Both the position numbers and the translations under genes were made by a program. Shown piece by piece: positions 1 through 40,621 of a stretch of 64,000 nt of DNA. The stretch is from Deltaproteobacteria bacterium GWA2_38_16 (GTDB taxonomy: Bacteria > Bdellovibrionota > JACOXK01 > 2-02-FULL-40-11), in the NCBI GenBank assembly GCA_001797335.1, contig MGPE01000006.1, positions 1-64,000 of the forward strand, given 5' to 3'. The notes under the pieces were generated by a model. It did not search any database, was not told where the DNA came from, and was given only the letters and a program-made list of their open reading frames with translations. Each line of letters opens with the position of its first letter. Position 1 is the stretch's first letter.

Positions 1-616
1 TATAACCCAAAAAATCTCCTCCATTGGGATAATAGGCCATACTTATTGGAGAGGCTCTAGAACCTGAATATTGATCATAAAACCCCACCGATCGAGGGTA
101 AAATGTCCCTTCAATCGTTATAGATTCCCTGACATTGATAAATTGATACAGATTAAAACTATTATCAAAATACTCCAAATCCGCCAAATATTCGAAGGGT
201 CCATGAGCTAAATTAGGAATTACCAATCCCACAACAGGAGATATCTTGGGTGCTACATAGTTTAATTGTCCTGTACTAGGATTAACTATAGCTTTAATAG
301 CCTCAGGAAAATAAGTAGAAATAATATTGAGATTCGTAGTTAAAACTTCAACTTTATTTTGATGGAGCCAGGTTGCAGGATCTAGTCTTCGAAATTTAAA
401 TTTTCCGGATTGCCCAGATTGAAGCGTTAAGCTCACATGATTTCCTGGACTAAAATATCGATCTGCCGCATAGATTATTGACACCGTCTTTAAATCTAAG
501 TCCGAAACAGGGGGAAATAATTCTGAATCTGGTTTATCCCCACTACTACAGGATAGAATTTGAAGACTTATTATAATAAGTAAAAGAAAAGTCCCTATAT
601 GATTCTTTATCTTCAT
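1..616 (-). CDS. Putative exported lipoprotein, 3' end outside window
   Basis: The reading frame is open from an ATG at 616 down to base 1, about 205 codons, so the C-terminus lies outside the window. The product begins with a basic start, a hydrophobic stretch and a lipobox-like LQILSC followed by SSGDK, so it is probably a lipoprotein with the lipidated Cys near residue 23. The rest is rich in aromatic and beta-type residues; no domain was recognised. Its ATG overlaps the stop of the upstream secreted-protein gene as ATGA (613-616), which implies translational coupling and membership in the same operon. Function unknown. Confidence 0.7.
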   Translation of the reverse strand, partial: MKIKNHIGTFLLLIIISLQILSCSSGDKPDSELFPPVSDLDLKTVSIIYAADRYFSPGNHVSLTLQSGQSGKFKFRRLDPATWLHQNKVEVLTTNLNIISTYFPEAIKAIVNPSTGQLNYVAPKISPVVGLVIPNLAHGPFEYLADLEYFDNSFNLYQFINVRESITIEGTFYPRSVGFYDQYSGSRASPISMAYYPNGGDFLGY

Positions 617-1866
617 TGTAAGGTCTCCTTTACTTCAATCCACATTTTTTGCTTTCCATCAATTTGTCCTCGATAAATAGTGTACCCCACATGGAAACGA
701 TCCATAATAGACAAAAGCCCCTTTTTTCTTTGAATACGAATCGTTCCAGGAGCTTTGACAGTTTCAAAACCTGATGAAAAATCTAAAACCTGATCCACCA
801 AACGAACTATTTCTGTAGGTTCTAAATGAAATAGACTTGCCCCCTGTGCGAGGGTTAAAAGTTTATTTTTTATTTTATCCTTTGAATTTAAATTAAATGG
901 CATATAGTCCCAGGCCAAATTTTGATCTAATACATCCATAATCTCATCCACTACCCGATCAGCCGCTTTAGGATCTTGAGTTAAAAGCATCAAGACGACA
1001 TCTTCTTTTAGAAATTTCATTTTTTGAGGATTCAGTTTCACTAACTCTTGCTTATTTTCTTCTTTTTTCTCAGTTTCCAAAATTTTCGATAAAGATGCCA
1101 TATCTTGAACTCCCGAGAGAACAGATTTAAGTTCTATCTTTTTCTTTGGAGAAACTATTCGAAGAATCCGTGGATAAACATCTGGATTTATCTCAAATTC
1201 ATATCCTGAAATAGAAAGAGGAAATCCAAAAAAAGCTTTGGTTGAATCTCCATATGGCACTTCAGAAACTAACGCTCTAGAAACATTGCCCCACACTTTT
1301 GGAGAAAAAAGATCTATGACTTTAATGGTTTTTGATTCAAATATTTTACTAAAAAATTCCTGAAATACTTTTTCTTGTATTCGTTCCAAAGAGACTTCTG
1401 TCGAAAAAGATAATGCCATGTCCAAATCATGACCTGAAGAAAAAACAGAAACTTCCATCCCTTTTTTATTTTTAATAAACGAAATGAGCGCCTTTGAAGT
1501 CTTATTATTTTCATTTAATTCATAAAGATACGCTTGAGATGTAAGATCTCCCCATCCATAAACAGGGGGAACAGTATTTAAACTTAAGTTTCCCTTAAAC
1601 GTATGGTTCGAAGCAGCCCAAACATACCAAGGTCTATGTGTGAGCGGGTGAAGATATACCTGGTAACAGAGCAACTCCCTCATGGAAGCACTGGGAGATA
1701 CGGGCCGTTCAATAGTTATTTTTTTAAACTCATCAATATTATTTTCTAAAAAACTAAAACTCCCTGGATTTGGCTGAACAGAAATAATATGATTTAATTC
1801 CGCATAGACATAGAATGGAGTAAAAAATAAAATTATTCCAAAAATTTTTAACGCTTTTTTATTCAT
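613..1866 (-). CDS. Secreted protein of unknown function, 417 aa
   Basis: The N-terminus has a clear Sec signal peptide (MNKKALKIFGIILFF..., likely cleaved after YVYA near residue 22), so the product is exported. No family was recognised. The middle part is mixed alpha/beta. Residues around 285-370 look helical and acidic, and the C-terminal 45 residues are strand-like. The start at 1866 is supported by a GTGGAG ribosome site just upstream. It starts 2 bases after the preceding secreted-protein gene and ends in an ATGA overlap with the lipoprotein gene, so the three form one operon of exported products. A role at the cell surface is inference only. Confidence 0.72.
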   Translation of the reverse strand: MNKKALKIFGIILFFTPFYVYAELNHIISVQPNPGSFSFLENNIDEFKKITIERPVSPSASMRELLCYQVYLHPLTHRPWYVWAASNHTFKGNLSLNTVPPVYGWGDLTSQAYLYELNENNKTSKALISFIKNKKGMEVSVFSSGHDLDMALSFSTEVSLERIQEKVFQEFFSKIFESKTIKVIDLFSPKVWGNVSRALVSEVPYGDSTKAFFGFPLSISGYEFEINPDVYPRILRIVSPKKKIELKSVLSGVQDMASLSKILETEKKEENKQELVKLNPQKMKFLKEDVVLMLLTQDPKAADRVVDEIMDVLDQNLAWDYMPFNLNSKDKIKNKLLTLAQGASLFHLEPTEIVRLVDQVLDFSSGFETVKAPGTIRIQRKKGLLSIMDRFHVGYTIYRGQIDGKQKMWIEVKETLQ

Positions 1867-1868
1867 TT

Positions 1869-2192
1869 TTACTCCACTAAAACTTTAAATGATCCTTTTA
1901 ACACCCAAACATTTGGGATCTTCCATCCATTTTTATTATAAATATCCGTTACCTCACATCGAATTTGAACTTCTTTAGCAGTAGCTTTACTTAAAACATC
2001 TGTTACAACTGCTTCATCATAACGACATCGTTCTTCAGCACCTTTATCAGGATACATTCCGCCAGGCCCATAATATCCTGGATAGTCTGTTCCTTGGCTT
2101 TGATAGGACTTTGTCTCCCACTGAGGGGCAGCAAACACAGGCTGCATTAGAAAAGTACCCATTAAAAATACCATTAACGATAATAAACGCAT
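1869..2192 (-). CDS. Small secreted protein, 107 aa
   Basis: The start at 2192 was preferred over an upstream in-frame codon because AAAGGAGG sits a few bases before it and a signal peptide begins there (MRLLSLMVFLMGTFLMQPVFAA). The mature protein is about 85 residues with a Tyr/Gly/Pro-rich segment (TDYPGYYGPGGMYPD) and two Cys, which may form a disulphide in the periplasm. No family was recognised. It is the first gene of a three-gene secreted-protein operon and has a perfect 17-bp palindrome about 85 bases upstream (2275-2291), so it may be controlled by the neighbouring TIGR02147 regulator. Confidence 0.7.
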   Translation of the reverse strand: MRLLSLMVFLMGTFLMQPVFAAPQWETKSYQSQGTDYPGYYGPGGMYPDKGAEERCRYDEAVVTDVLSKATAKEVQIRCEVTDIYNKNGWKIPNVWVLKGSFKVLVE

Positions 2193-2274
2193 AATTCCTC
2201 CTTTAGGTGAGGATTGCTTTAACACTGACTCTTTTTTTCTGTCAACGTGGAATGGTGAAAAAAGACAAGAAAGT

Positions 2275-2291
2275 GTTGTCTATTGGACAAC
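2275..2291. promoter_or_regulatory. Palindromic operator-like site, copy 1
   Basis: GTTGTC-TATTG-GACAAC is a perfect 6-bp inverted repeat with a 5-bp spacer. The same arms and spacing recur at 4309-4325 in front of the TIGR02147 regulator gene. This copy lies between the 394-aa secreted-protein gene and the next minus-strand gene (start 2192), a suitable place to control that second transcription unit. It is likely a binding site for the regulator encoded at 3480-4280; that assignment is inference. Confidence 0.6.
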
Positions 2292-2298
2292 GAATGGA

Positions 2299-3483
2299 CT
2301 AATGTTTAGGAAAAAGGAGATGAAGTCGTTCATACATATGCTCAACAATGCCTTCTTGCTGCAACTCTTCTTGAATACGCTCGTCATCGTTTAGCATCGT
2401 GGCTTTGTCTTGGGGTGACAGAGCTTCAATTTGATTTAAGATCTCTTCATACTGCTCATTAAAATTTCGAATCGTGGATTGCATGTGAGCCATGAATACA
2501 TTTTTTGTGTCGCTTTCCAAATCTTTCTCTAATTCTGTTATGGCCAATATGGCGAGCTGAATTTCTAAAGCCAAGACATCACGTTTAATCATCACATTTT
2601 CGGGGCTTCGAAGAAGTGCATATTGCCTTTCATTATATTTTCCAACGGTTTGAATATAGAGTTCTTGTTGAGTTGCTTCGTCCCCATAGGCCATAGAACC
2701 CGGAACAAACATTAAGAGAAAACCACCCACTTTCATGAAAAGCTTTACATAACCAGGGGTCACATGATTTGCGGCCACCATTAAAATACCCCCTCCCGCC
2801 ATACTGGACATAACAAAGATAGGCCGAGGAACGCCAGAGTCTGTTAACGCTACTTTTTTAATTCCGGAAGCTAAAAGCATAAGTGTAGAGGGATTCACAA
2901 ATACCCCAGAATCATCTAAGTAATTAATCTGTGCATAAACTTTATAAGCTCGAAGGATAATGTTTTCCACCTCATCCAATTTAGGCTCAATGCGACCTAA
3001 AAATTCTTCATCGGATTCATAATATTTTGGTTTAAATAACGTATGGCGAGCCGATTCCCTACACATAAGCATGATCGCTCCCAACGCGGTAATGTTAAGC
3101 TCTTCACATCTTTTTAAATTAATTTTAATTGGGGCCGCAAAGGTATGAAATGTCAAAGCCGTTTTTTCACTGCCACGTTTCAAAAACTGTCCCCGTTCGG
3201 ACTCACCACAAAATATTAACGGAGGCGTTGCTCTTAAATCACTGATCAGTTGTTCTCGAAATTCTTGGTAATACTCTATGGAATAACTGGGTAAATCTGT
3301 TTTTATTTTTAACATTTTAGGAGTGACGGTTTGTAAAACCCGAATTGCCATTTCTTTAGATTCTTTAATCTTAATTTCTACATAATCCCCTCCCCCTTCC
3401 ACATGCCCACCACCGGAAAAACACTCTCCAGCCATGAATAGAAAAGTAAGGGTTACAAAAAAATTAAAAGAGTATTTTTTCAT
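2299..3483 (-). CDS. Secreted protein paired with TIGR02147 regulator, 394 aa
   Basis: The product starts with a signal peptide (MKKYSFNFFVTLTFLFMAGECFS) and the mature end is Gly-rich (GGGHVEGGGDYVEIKI), reminiscent of the GNGGDVVVC start of the other TIGR02147-linked secreted protein at 38963. Hydrophobic segments lie near residues 225-265 and could be one or two membrane helices. The C-terminal third is a long charged helical region. Cys residues around 92, 125 and 140 may pair. No catalytic motif is evident. It overlaps the regulator gene by ATGA (3480-3483), so the two are translationally coupled. Function unknown; cell envelope location inferred. Confidence 0.72.
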   Translation of the reverse strand: MKKYSFNFFVTLTFLFMAGECFSGGGHVEGGGDYVEIKIKESKEMAIRVLQTVTPKMLKIKTDLPSYSIEYYQEFREQLISDLRATPPLIFCGESERGQFLKRGSEKTALTFHTFAAPIKINLKRCEELNITALGAIMLMCRESARHTLFKPKYYESDEEFLGRIEPKLDEVENIILRAYKVYAQINYLDDSGVFVNPSTLMLLASGIKKVALTDSGVPRPIFVMSSMAGGGILMVAANHVTPGYVKLFMKVGGFLLMFVPGSMAYGDEATQQELYIQTVGKYNERQYALLRSPENVMIKRDVLALEIQLAILAITELEKDLESDTKNVFMAHMQSTIRNFNEQYEEILNQIEALSPQDKATMLNDDERIQEELQQEGIVEHMYERLHLLFPKH

Positions 3484-4280
3484 ATTTTTTCCGTCGCTCT
3501 AAAAAGCTGAATCGCCAATTGATAAACTTCCATTTTATTCGATTTGGTTAACAATTTTTCCATATCTCCCCTAAATTTTCGGATAAGTTCACGAGCTTCT
3601 TTCAATTTGGAAGTATCAATCCCAAACGTAACAGAGCTCATGTGCCTTTCATCCACACTCTGAGAATCCAAGCTTTTTAAAGCTCTTTCTAAGGATTGCT
3701 TGTGAAATTTAAGAAATGCTTCATTGGGGATATCGGTAGAAGCTACATACGTCGATTGCATTTTTCTCCATTGATTTCCATCACACATTAAAAGTTTTAA
3801 TCGTTGAAGTCTTTCAATAGCCAACTCTACTTCAGCTTGAGAAATACCCAATTTCTTTGCTATCCAACGAGGATTGGGTTTAAATCCTTTGACTTCAATT
3901 AATTCCAAAATGGCATAATGATACCAATCTGAAATAAGCTTAAACATGTCTCCTTCCAAAGAATAAAAATCTTTAGAAGGACGGATTTCTTTTAACCGGT
4001 TTTCAATATATTCTTTTGACACCAAATTTTTGGCTGTATCAAAATGGACCAATTGGCAAAAATATTCTCTTTTATTGCCTTTCAAATTTAAAATAGAAGA
4101 CACTTCCAGAGCCTTCTCATAAGACATTCTTTTTTTACCTTGTAATACGCGGCTTAACTGCCCCGGACTCATCTTGAGTTGATAGGCATAGGAGCGAAGA
4201 GAATATTTAGGATTTACGTGGCAGCGCCTGGCCAATTCCGTTTTAAGATAGGTTCGATAATCCTGGTGCTCAAAAATCAT
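3480..4280 (-). CDS. TIGR02147 / DUF4423 family transcriptional regulator
   Basis: The N-terminal part (about residues 5-70) has the family pattern: YRTYLK, then SLRSYAYQLKMSPGQLSRVLQ as a helix-turn-helix, then EYFCQL. The C-terminal DUF4423 domain has the typical SDWYHYAILELI segment and the conserved region SSVTFGIDTSKLKEARELI. Length 266 aa is normal for the family. Such proteins are found in Bdellovibrio-like and Fibrobacter genomes; ligands and regulons are mostly unknown. The gene heads an operon with a secreted protein. Its promoter contains a palindrome (4309-4325) also present before the next operon, so autoregulation is likely. The ATG sits almost directly at the predicted transcription start. 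Confidence 0.88.
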   Translation of the reverse strand: MIFEHQDYRTYLKTELARRCHVNPKYSLRSYAYQLKMSPGQLSRVLQGKKRMSYEKALEVSSILNLKGNKREYFCQLVHFDTAKNLVSKEYIENRLKEIRPSKDFYSLEGDMFKLISDWYHYAILELIEVKGFKPNPRWIAKKLGISQAEVELAIERLQRLKLLMCDGNQWRKMQSTYVASTDIPNEAFLKFHKQSLERALKSLDSQSVDERHMSSVTFGIDTSKLKEARELIRKFRGDMEKLLTKSNKMEVYQLAIQLFRATEKI

Positions 4281-4285
4281 GCAGC

Positions 4286-4316
4286 ATTATATATGATGAA
4301 AACAAGGCGTTGTCAA
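4286..4316 (-). promoter_or_regulatory. Promoter of TIGR02147 regulator operon
   Basis: On the minus strand a perfect -35 box TTGACA (4311-4316) is followed after 19 bases by TATAAT (4286-4291), or after 17 bases by TATATA (4288-4293). With the usual spacing to +1, transcription would begin at or next to the ATG at 4280, so the message is probably leaderless. The -35 box lies inside the 4309-4325 palindrome, so a bound protein would block polymerase. Confidence 0.6.
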
Positions 4317-4325
4317 CTGGACAAC
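4309..4325. promoter_or_regulatory. Palindromic operator-like site, copy 2
   Basis: GTTGTC-AACTG-GACAAC is a perfect inverted repeat with the same arms and 5-bp spacing as the copy at 2275-2291. It overlaps the -35 element of the regulator's promoter, a typical arrangement for negative autoregulation. Binding by the TIGR02147 protein is inferred from position and repetition. Confidence 0.62.
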
Positions 4326-38138: not shown

Positions 38139-38966
38139 ATGCAGATAAATGTTTATGAATTTACAGACCCAAGGGAATTTTTGGTCAGTGTTTTAAAAGA
38201 AAAACAAACCGTAAACCCTAGATTTTCCCTTAGAACATGGTCAAGACAACTCGGGTTTTCTAGCCCCAATATGCTTTCTATGATTTTACGAGGGGAACGA
38301 TCGTTAAGACCCAAGGTAGTAACAAGCATCGCAGAAACTTTAAACTTAAAGGAAACTGAAAAAAAATATTTTGAGATTTTGACGGTCTTTTCCCGTGCCA
38401 AAACCCCAAATGAAAAAAATATTTACGCCAACATTTTAAAAGAAATTAGACCGGATAAGAAGTTTTCAACTTTAGCTCTTGATGAATTTAAATGCATTTC
38501 AGATTGGTATCACATTGCCGTTATTGAGATGCTAAGACTTAAAGACTTTAAAGAAGAGCCTTCATGGATTTCTAAACGCTTGGGATCAACAGTATCAACC
38601 CAAATAATTAAAGATGCCATTGCAAGGCTTTTTAGGCTTGGAATTTTAACAAGAGACAAGAGAGGAAAGCTTATTTGCCATAAGAAAGATTACTCTACAA
38701 CCTATGATGTACCTCATGAAGCAATTCAAAAGTTTCATACGCAAATGCTTGAGAAGGCACAAAATGCTTTAAAAGATCAGCCTGTGGATAAACGAGAAGT
38801 TTCTTCTATTACCTTTACGATCGATTCTTCCAAAATTAAAAAAGCAAAAGAAATGATTAGACGTTTCCAAGATGAACTTTCAAAGGTGATCTCTACGGAT
38901 AATGGAGATCAAACATATCAATTCAATGTTCAATTCTTTAACCTGACAGATGGAGGTCAAAAATGA
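38139..38966 (+). CDS. TIGR02147 / DUF4423 family transcriptional regulator, second copy
   Basis: A 275-aa paralogue of the regulator at 3480-4280. The N-terminal HTH part has FTDPREFLVSVLKE, SLRTWSRQLGFSSPNMLSMIL and EKKYFEILTVF. The DUF4423 part has CISDWYHIAVIEMLRL and SSITFTIDSSKIKKAKEMI, aligned with the same positions of the first copy. It overlaps the next secreted-protein gene by ATGA (38963-38966), exactly as the first copy overlaps its partner. Each regulator therefore seems dedicated to its coupled exported protein. The GTTGTC-N5-GACAAC palindrome is not present here, so its operator differs. Function and ligand unknown. Confidence 0.87.
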   Translation: MQINVYEFTDPREFLVSVLKEKQTVNPRFSLRTWSRQLGFSSPNMLSMILRGERSLRPKVVTSIAETLNLKETEKKYFEILTVFSRAKTPNEKNIYANILKEIRPDKKFSTLALDEFKCISDWYHIAVIEMLRLKDFKEEPSWISKRLGSTVSTQIIKDAIARLFRLGILTRDKRGKLICHKKDYSTTYDVPHEAIQKFHTQMLEKAQNALKDQPVDKREVSSITFTIDSSKIKKAKEMIRRFQDELSKVISTDNGDQTYQFNVQFFNLTDGGQK

Positions 38967-40621
38967 AAAAAATAATGTTTATACTCATAGTCATCCTACT
39001 TTCCTCATTAAGCTATGCGGATGTTAAAGTTGGGAATGGAGGAGATGTGGTTGTCTGCCGGAATGCATCAAATGAAATTACTTCTATCGAGGCTTTAGAT
39101 ATTTATGAGGGAAGGGTTCGGTGGCAGATTGAACTTGATTTAGGAGAGGCTTCTTTATTTCCACTTCAAAAAGTAGAATTAGCTCTCTCAAGATTAGGGC
39201 GTATTTCTTCTATCCGGGCTGAGCGGTATTTAGAAAAAGCCAAGCAGTTTGAAGCGGATGCGCTTTTTTTAGATAACACCGAACTTCCGGATATCTCTGA
39301 TTCTAATCATTTAATTTTTCCAAAAAACTGTAAAGTCGAACAAATTATTATTCAACGGACTCCTACTTTCCCTGATGATAGACGATATTTGATCAGCAAT
39401 GATCTTTGGAAACAATTAGACCCTACCAATAAAGCTGCTCTTATACTTCACGAAATTATTTATGGAGAAGCTCTTGAGTATGATCATCCAGATTCTGTTC
39501 CTACCCGTTACTTTAGTGCTCATCTCATGTCTCATCGTTTTGAGTCCTTTACCCCAAAGGAAATGGCTGATTTTTTAAAAATGATACGTTTTAGGAAGTT
39601 TGATTACCAAGGTTTTGTCTATGACAACAATGAGGAGTGCCACCGTCATCTTTCAGAGTATAGTCCTGATTGGCTTGAAATCCAATTTTATAATGATGGC
39701 GTAACCGTTGACAAGGGGTGTGTTTCAAGTGGCTCAGTTGTGGTTCAAGGAAAGACGCTCTCTATTAGGGGCCGAGTTTCATTCCATGATAATGGGCAAC
39801 CTCATGCTTTCTTTCCAAAATTTTCAGATTCTTTATCTCTGCAGATAGGCGAAAGAGAATATAGTGTAGAGAAGAGAGGTGAAATGCAACTCCATCCCGA
39901 TGGGAACTTAAAGTTTGTTAGGTTATTGTTAGATAATAAATATGAAACGGCTTTTAAATCTTCAACATATGATCTGATCGTTATTGATTCGCATGATTAT
40001 GGAGATTCAGAGGTGCTAAAAGTTGGTCTTTATCCCAATGGAATCATTAGTTCTCTTGAAACCTATGGTGGCCCGTCTTATTCTAGTCAAATTATGGGTT
40101 GGGGAATAATGCAAGGTCAAAAAATAAATATTTTCTCAGATCATGTTTATTTTTTCCCAGATGGAACTGTCAGGGGAGCTAGAATTTCTCGTGAAACTCC
40201 TTTAAATTTTACGATTGAAGGTCATCAGCTTAGATTTGCATCTGAAGTTGAACTTTATGATACAGGGACATTAAAAAAAGGGCTTTTTATAGCAGTCCCC
40301 CAAAATAATTTTTGGGGAACATCAGCCTACTTTGAAAAAGAAACCATTCTTCTTTCTGTTGGAGACAGTAAAGTTCTTTTTTTTCTGAAAGATAAAACCG
40401 ATGATTTTTCGGAAGGCCGATATATCCTTTTTTATCCTGGTTATAAAGTTCAATCTGGAAAGATTGCTCAGCGAACAACATTTAAAGCCGTTGATGGGCG
40501 AACTTTACGCATTCCGAAGGGATTTACAGGCTCTGAGGGTGCTCGAACTTTAAGCCTTCCAGCGGGAACGTGGGTTGTGTTAGATGAGAATGGGCGATTA
40601 CTACAGTGGCAGGAGGAGTAA
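38963..40621 (+). CDS. Large secreted protein paired with TIGR02147 regulator, 552 aa
   Basis: A signal peptide (MKKIMFILIVILLSSLSYA) leads to DVKVGNGGDVVVCRN, a start seen in a family of exported proteins of predatory Bdellovibrio-like bacteria (recalled). Residues about 150-175 contain ALILHEIIYGEALEYDH, which resembles a metalloprotease helix but lacks the second His of HExxH, so catalysis is uncertain. The second half (about 220-552) is beta-rich, with recurring units of the type L-Y/F-x-x-G-x-(V/I/L), such as VYFFPDGTVRGA, VELYDTGTLKKG and VGLYPNGIISS, like MORN or toxin-type beta repeats. Probably periplasmic or surface located. It is coupled to the upstream regulator. Confidence 0.72.
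   Translation: MKKIMFILIVILLSSLSYADVKVGNGGDVVVCRNASNEITSIEALDIYEGRVRWQIELDLGEASLFPLQKVELALSRLGRISSIRAERYLEKAKQFEADALFLDNTELPDISDSNHLIFPKNCKVEQIIIQRTPTFPDDRRYLISNDLWKQLDPTNKAALILHEIIYGEALEYDHPDSVPTRYFSAHLMSHRFESFTPKEMADFLKMIRFRKFDYQGFVYDNNEECHRHLSEYSPDWLEIQFYNDGVTVDKGCVSSGSVVVQGKTLSIRGRVSFHDNGQPHAFFPKFSDSLSLQIGEREYSVEKRGEMQLHPDGNLKFVRLLLDNKYETAFKSSTYDLIVIDSHDYGDSEVLKVGLYPNGIISSLETYGGPSYSSQIMGWGIMQGQKINIFSDHVYFFPDGTVRGARISRETPLNFTIEGHQLRFASEVELYDTGTLKKGLFIAVPQNNFWGTSAYFEKETILLSVGDSKVLFFLKDKTDDFSEGRYILFYPGYKVQSGKIAQRTTFKAVDGRTLRIPKGFTGSEGARTLSLPAGTWVVLDENGRLLQWQEE

Follow-up and report, generated by a model that had tools for sequence, protein, structure and literature searches.

The window, which is the whole stretch of 64,000 nucleotides analysed here, carries a gene for a TIGR02147 regulator with a copy of the palindrome GTTGTC-N5-GACAAC on either side, and the question raised by this locus is whether these two palindromes are the operators of the regulator. 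A preliminary description of the locus had claimed two perfect 17-bp inverted repeats, one over the -35 of the regulator promoter and the other ahead of the next secreted-protein operon. Both repeats are present, at 2275-2291 (GTTGTCTATTGGACAAC, + strand) and 4309-4325 (GTTGTCAACTGGACAAC, + strand), and their placement was correct. Since the genes are read on the minus strand, the 4309 palindrome (site 1) is the one over the regulator -35, and the 2275 palindrome (site 2) is the one before the gene for a small exported protein (ATG 2192).

The regulator and its promoters

On the minus strand the order is a kinase-like gene, site 1, the regulator, its exported partner, site 2, the small exported protein and a 417-aa exported protein (Table 1). 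Site 2 stands 29 bp upstream of the sequence TTGACA-N17-TTAAAG, which is followed by a normal leader with GGAGG. No ribosome site was found before the regulator ATG, and a leaderless mRNA is therefore predicted for that gene. Neither promoter of the locus was listed by a generic promoter scan, and their -10 elements are only fair. Among the 78 TIGR02147 genes collected (see below), a good promoter with a -10 ending 4-11 nt from the start codon was found at 20, against about 3 expected from shuffles, a comparison computed on the collected loci only. In most TIGR02147 promoters of G000 the -10 ends 7-11 nt before the ATG, and leaderless regulator mRNAs are predicted there, as at 4281-4316 of the window. 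The window also contains, at 38139-40621, a second TIGR02147 regulator together with its VGNGGD exported partner (38963-40621); the promoter of this regulator has TTGACC and no clear palindrome.

Table 1. Coordinates of the features at the locus (positions in the window)
Feature	Position	Strand	Remarks
Kinase-like gene (ORF; name from reading of the sequence)	5235-4333	-	upstream of site 1
Site 1, candidate operator GTTGTCCAGTTGACAAC (minus strand)	4309..4325	-	exact palindrome over -35 of regulator promoter
-35 hexamer TTGACA, regulator promoter	4311..4316	-	from sequence; inside site 1
-10 hexamer TATATA, regulator promoter	4288..4293	-	ends 7 nt before ATG; N17 spacer; promoter score 10.5
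TIGR02147/DUF4423 regulator, 266 aa	3480..4280	-	profile scores above both cut-offs
Exported partner, 394 aa, signal peptide then GGGHVEGGGDY	2299..3483	-	overlaps regulator stop by 4 nt (ATGA)
Site 2, candidate operator GTTGTCCAATAGACAAC (minus strand)	2275..2291	-	centred about -73 from predicted start of next operon
Possible extra half-site CTTGTC	2264..2269	-	22 bp (two turns) from first arm of site 2; suggestive only
Predicted second-operon promoter: TTGACA (2245-2240), N17, TTAAAG (2222-2217)	2217..2245	-	from sequence and alignment with relatives
Small exported protein, 107 aa, ATG 2192, GGAGG ribosome site	1869..2192	-	first gene under site 2
417-aa exported protein, second gene of site-2 operon	613..1866	-	no confident family

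The 266-aa protein is a member of both NCBIfam TIGR02147 (170.5 bits over residues 2-264, cut-off 50) and Pfam DUF4423 (PF14394; 165 bits over residues 105-261, cut-off 30). The profile XRE/HTH_3 (PF01381) scored 14.8 bits against a cut-off of 23; helices were predicted at residues 28-34 and 39-46, and the partial structure matches included HigA-like ones. In an AF2 model (pLDDT 92) the protein has an N-terminal helix-turn-helix, a winged helix (about 105-180) and a helical C-terminal part. A fold search of the PDB gave no full-length match to the regulator, the best E-value being 0.07, and only partial helix-turn-helix or winged-helix matches were obtained. A PADLOC match to Csa3 was weak and was read as winged-helix similarity. 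At a strict threshold TIGR02147/DUF4423 proteins were found in 95 of 144 genomes of the phylum, and the genome of the window has 14 TIGR02147 copies. G002:C31 (L121) and G003:C2 (L094) have open frames of about 850-950 aa in which a TIGR02147 domain seems to be part of a longer fusion protein.

Rarity and conservation of the palindrome pair

Exact GTTGTC-N5-GACAAC occurs only twice in the 2.0-Mb genome (19 contigs), with both copies at the window locus and 2 kb apart. By a composition estimate about 0.1 exact copies per genome are expected by chance, and a reversed control pattern gave 0 exact copies in the same genome. With up to two mismatches no genome-wide excess was seen (38 motif matches versus 50 for the control), hence the signal sits in the exact and near-exact copies. 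The single copy with one mismatch (C14:7730-7746, GTTGCCTCATTGACAAC) belongs to the closest TIGR02147 paralogue (67% identity), where it covers the -35 and precedes the start codon by about 30 bp. The preliminary description had proposed a genome-wide scan and had considered that the motif might be scattered; that idea was dropped, since the genome has two exact copies only, and these, together with the near copy, are all in TIGR02147 operons. In three other genomes (G025, G010 and G036) exact N5 copies were found in loci without a TIGR02147 match, which fits the chance level of the control pattern.

G001 and G005, two genomes from the same family, contain the orthologous operon; G005 is a MAG (JAHFEZ01) deposited as a deltaproteobacterium. 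Identity between G005 and the window is 72% for the regulator, 41% for the partner and 47% for the small exported protein. The G001 operon is broken between contigs: C148 carries site 1 and the beginning of the regulator gene, C48 carries site 2 next to a homologue of the small exported protein, and the continuity of the operon was inferred from the gene order in the other two genomes. Comparison of the upstream regions of orthologues, also suggested in the preliminary description, found both sites kept in G001 and G005. Site 2 is GTTGTCTAAAAGACAAC in G005 and GTTGTCTATTAGACAAC in G001, with perfect arms and different spacers, and is the sole exact N5 copy in each of these genomes. Site 1 has an N6 spacer in both and lies over TTGACA; it is GTTGTCCAGATTGACAAC in G001, the sole exact N6 copy of that genome, and GTTGTCCAGATTGACAAT in G005, ending in GACAAT. 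Across the three orthologues 12 of the 12 arm columns are identical at site 2 and 11 of 12 at site 1; the counts for the flank columns are 4/14 and 21/45 at site 2, and 5/25 and 17/40 at site 1.

Site 2 and the -35 are separated by 29 bp in all four cases compared, namely the window, G001, G005 and the C14 paralogue, and the second-operon promoter of the window aligns with TTTACA...TTACAT in G005 and G001 and with TATACA...TTACAT in C14. G001 and G005 each have an extra GTTGTC half-site upstream of site 1, at a distance of exactly 22 bp (L067:5328-5367; L065 about 2910-2950), and TTTGTC or TTTGCC occurs in G005 and G001 at the same offset as the CTTGTC half-site near site 2 in the window. Such half-sites at 22 bp may hint at cooperative binding, although they are suggestive only.

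Palindromes and exported partners of the TIGR02147 family

A total of 78 TIGR02147 upstream regions (77 once a duplicate is removed) were collected from the genome of the window and its relatives. In 37 of the 78 there is a palindrome whose contiguous arms span 7 bp or more, versus 5.8 (sd 2.7, largest 13) in dinucleotide shuffles; in the non-redundant set clustered at 60% identity the proportion was 31/64 (48%), and in a control of 107 further intergenic upstream regions, taken from these loci, only 12 (11%) had arms of this length. Some of the G+C-rich family palindromes may be terminators of upstream genes. The arms are lineage-specific: GTGTTTC-N8-GAAACAC is shared by L074 and L086, GTTTCGA...TCGAAAC by L075 and L085, and GTTAAC...GTTAAC by L053, L056 and L115. 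Two candidate operators of other paralogues were searched for across the genome. GTTTC-N8-GAAAC has four copies, two of them at TIGR02147 promoters. GGTTTC-N5-GAAACC has one exact copy in the genome, in the L024 promoter beside a tandem neighbour with one mismatch, and its one-mismatch copies show no excess elsewhere in the genome. The L069 promoter (G000:C5:41518-41551) contains two adjacent 17-bp palindromes, GGTTTC-N5-GAAACC and a tandem copy with one mismatch, which have the same 6-5-6 format as those of the window and different arms.

In many paralogues the palindrome centres peak 60-70 bp before the ATG. This would be near the position of a class I activator if the mRNAs are leaderless, so that the site covering the -35 in the window is a variant. 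Since many paralogue palindromes lie at 60-70 bp and not over the -35, regulation may differ in sign between family members. Enrichment was weaker in a second set of 21 TIGR02147 genes, mostly of another subclade: arms of at least 7 bp were present at 6 of the 21, so the palindrome is not a uniform feature of the family. GTTG/CAAC was present in the palindrome arm for five of nine regulators with Arg44 in the recognition helix (...LSR...) and for none of the 62 others, a pattern which was spotted after the fact and counted without regard to relatedness.

The gene following the regulator is also a recurrent feature. Of 74 TIGR02147 genes with an ORF after them, 70 have the start of this ORF between -25 and +30 nt from the stop codon, 46 of them with a 4-nt overlap, and 66 of the ORFs passed a crude signal-peptide test. 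Throughout the phylum these partners almost always have a GN(G/P/A) or GGG motif, placed directly behind the signal peptide, and the remainder of their sequences is largely unrelated. A glycine-rich GN-type motif was found within residues 16-65 in 63/66 partners versus 15/111 other exported ORFs of the same loci; as this motif set was picked after viewing the partners, the count for strict GNG is fairer, and it gave 31/66 partners versus 5/111 controls. Three of the five GNG-positive controls are tandem copies in the L074 operon, which has four tandem copies of the GN-motif exported protein, and the others are from L084 and L085, loci with TIGR02147 operons. In the second set a coupled exported protein or lipoprotein accompanies 20 of 21 genes, with motifs of VGNG, IGNA or TGNP type in nearly all. 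Ten sites coding for VGNGG were found in the genome of the window, of which eight are at exported proteins of TIGR02147 operons and the other two are not at such N-termini. Pfam searches with the window partner and with a set of ten partners gave nothing above cut-off, and the AF2 model of the partner (pLDDT 56) has no interpretable fold.

Proposed regulation and comparison with known systems

At the level of sequence, the two sites are rare, paired, conserved in their arms and promoter geometry, and tied to the regulator lineage. An operator would be expected to be conserved at orthologous promoters and rare elsewhere, and this is what was found. We predict, with a probability of about 0.8, that the two palindromes are operators of the adjacent regulator. 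The preliminary description had read them as a candidate TIGR02147 operator, and this reading is supported by the association of the motif with TIGR02147 operons, by the retention of the sites in orthologues and by the lineage-specific palindromes of the family.

Both palindromes begin about 8 bp after a stop codon, that of the kinase gene (4333) or that of the exported-partner gene (2299), and might instead be intrinsic terminator hairpins of these genes; their predicted RNA hairpins are of -6.6 and -6.5 kcal/mol, and both pass a loose terminator filter. The hairpins, however, have only three G-C pairs and are followed by a broken T-run rather than a direct one. Above all, the gene upstream of the regulator in G001 is divergent (L067:4210-5286, minus) and would not be read through site 1, yet the palindrome there is intact, and chiefly for this reason the terminator reading is disfavoured. 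Furthermore, some 370 bp separate site 1 from the end of the preceding ORF in G005, all four cases have TTGACA within the arm, the 29-bp gap at site 2 does not vary, and exact copies are absent from every other gene end of the genome. We consider terminators very improbable. It is only slightly less improbable that the sites are operators of some other transcription factor encoded elsewhere and that the TIGR02147 protein merely lies between them. Binding by the regulator is itself a prediction from sequence, which leaves room for this explanation; but the near copy is at the closest TIGR02147 paralogue and nowhere else, the arm sequence tracks both the regulator lineage and a residue of the recognition helix, and for a general factor one would expect a larger number of sites.

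If the palindromes are operators of the TIGR02147 protein, a regulator dimer would bind GTTGTC-N5/6-GACAAC through its N-terminal helix-turn-helix, with the arms one helical turn (11 bp) apart. At site 1 the dimer would cover the -35 of its own leaderless promoter and limit the expression of the regulator and its coupled exported partner, and such autorepression is fairly likely. At site 2, near -73 and at a fixed distance of 29 bp from the -35, it may act from a class I-type position as an activator of the operon that begins with the small exported protein; we lean slightly towards activation here, and repression is possible. A variant compatible with the operator prediction is that the regulator represses both promoters, perhaps by looping across 2 kb. 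The identical arms at both sites and the location of site 1 where a repressor would lie agree with this, whereas the fixed distance of site 2 in four cases is that of a class I activator, and in paralogues such as L074 and L075 the palindromes are, by eye, near -62 before a weak -35. Repression at both promoters is less likely than activation at site 2. The regulator would be a local one, its regulon consisting of its own operon, the next operon and perhaps the paralogous C14 operon.

A bolder and rather doubtful hypothesis is that the regulator senses the GN(G/P/A) stretch that directly follows the signal peptide of its partner, or else a cleaved-off peptide. Expression would then be set, through the lineage-specific operators, by export or by a peptide that comes back, and regulator and partner would form a self-monitoring module. 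If true, a signalling system would have been multiplied into many mutually insulated copies per genome.

The remark in the preliminary description that the DNA sites of the family are little described fits our literature search, which covered few subscription journals and found no paper naming TIGR02147 and no operator, regulon or partner for the family. DUF4423 appears in a single paper, in a proteomics table that lists Bd3700 (DUF4423) among the proteins upregulated during growth in prey (PMC12546842). For a family with no DNA site or regulon described in the literature searched, the locus gives a precise 17-bp candidate operator, two promoters and a testable geometry, and the association of Arg44 with GTTG arms would be a first clue to the specificity of TIGR02147 regulators. 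With the pattern seen across the phylum, of lineage-specific palindromes and a single coupled exported partner with a GN motif per regulator, genes that were anonymous become a regulatory module open to testing.

The TIGR02147 regulator resembles HigA antitoxins in a weak similarity of its N-terminal helix-turn-helix and in partial fold matches. It differs in its neighbour, which is exported, matches no Pfam family and is not a toxin enzyme; the HigA profile TIGR02607 matched with 19.6 bits against a cut-off of 47.7 and no HigB toxin is adjacent, and the locus was not assigned to the HigBA toxin-antitoxin systems. In the RRNPP regulators (PlcR, Rgg and ComR) a helix-turn-helix gene stands beside a gene for an exported partner product, and the C-terminal part is a TPR peptide receptor. 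The gene arrangement in the window is similar; unlike in RRNPP systems, the TIGR02147 partner is an exported protein of 90-650 aa and not a short propeptide, with no sign yet of partner feedback. Membership of RRNPP was rejected, since the DUF4423 region was modelled as a winged helix and helices, no TPR protein was among the PDB matches listed, and TPR_EMC2 was weak and below cut-off. Lambda CI and the 434 repressor are autoregulated helix-turn-helix dimers which bind a palindromic operator with half-sites one turn apart, including a site over their own promoter. The window regulator differs from these in combining a helix-turn-helix with a winged helix and a helical part, and in having a translationally coupled exported partner. 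It is like them in the palindromic site over its own promoter, in the half-sites one turn apart, and in that the same protein may activate elsewhere.
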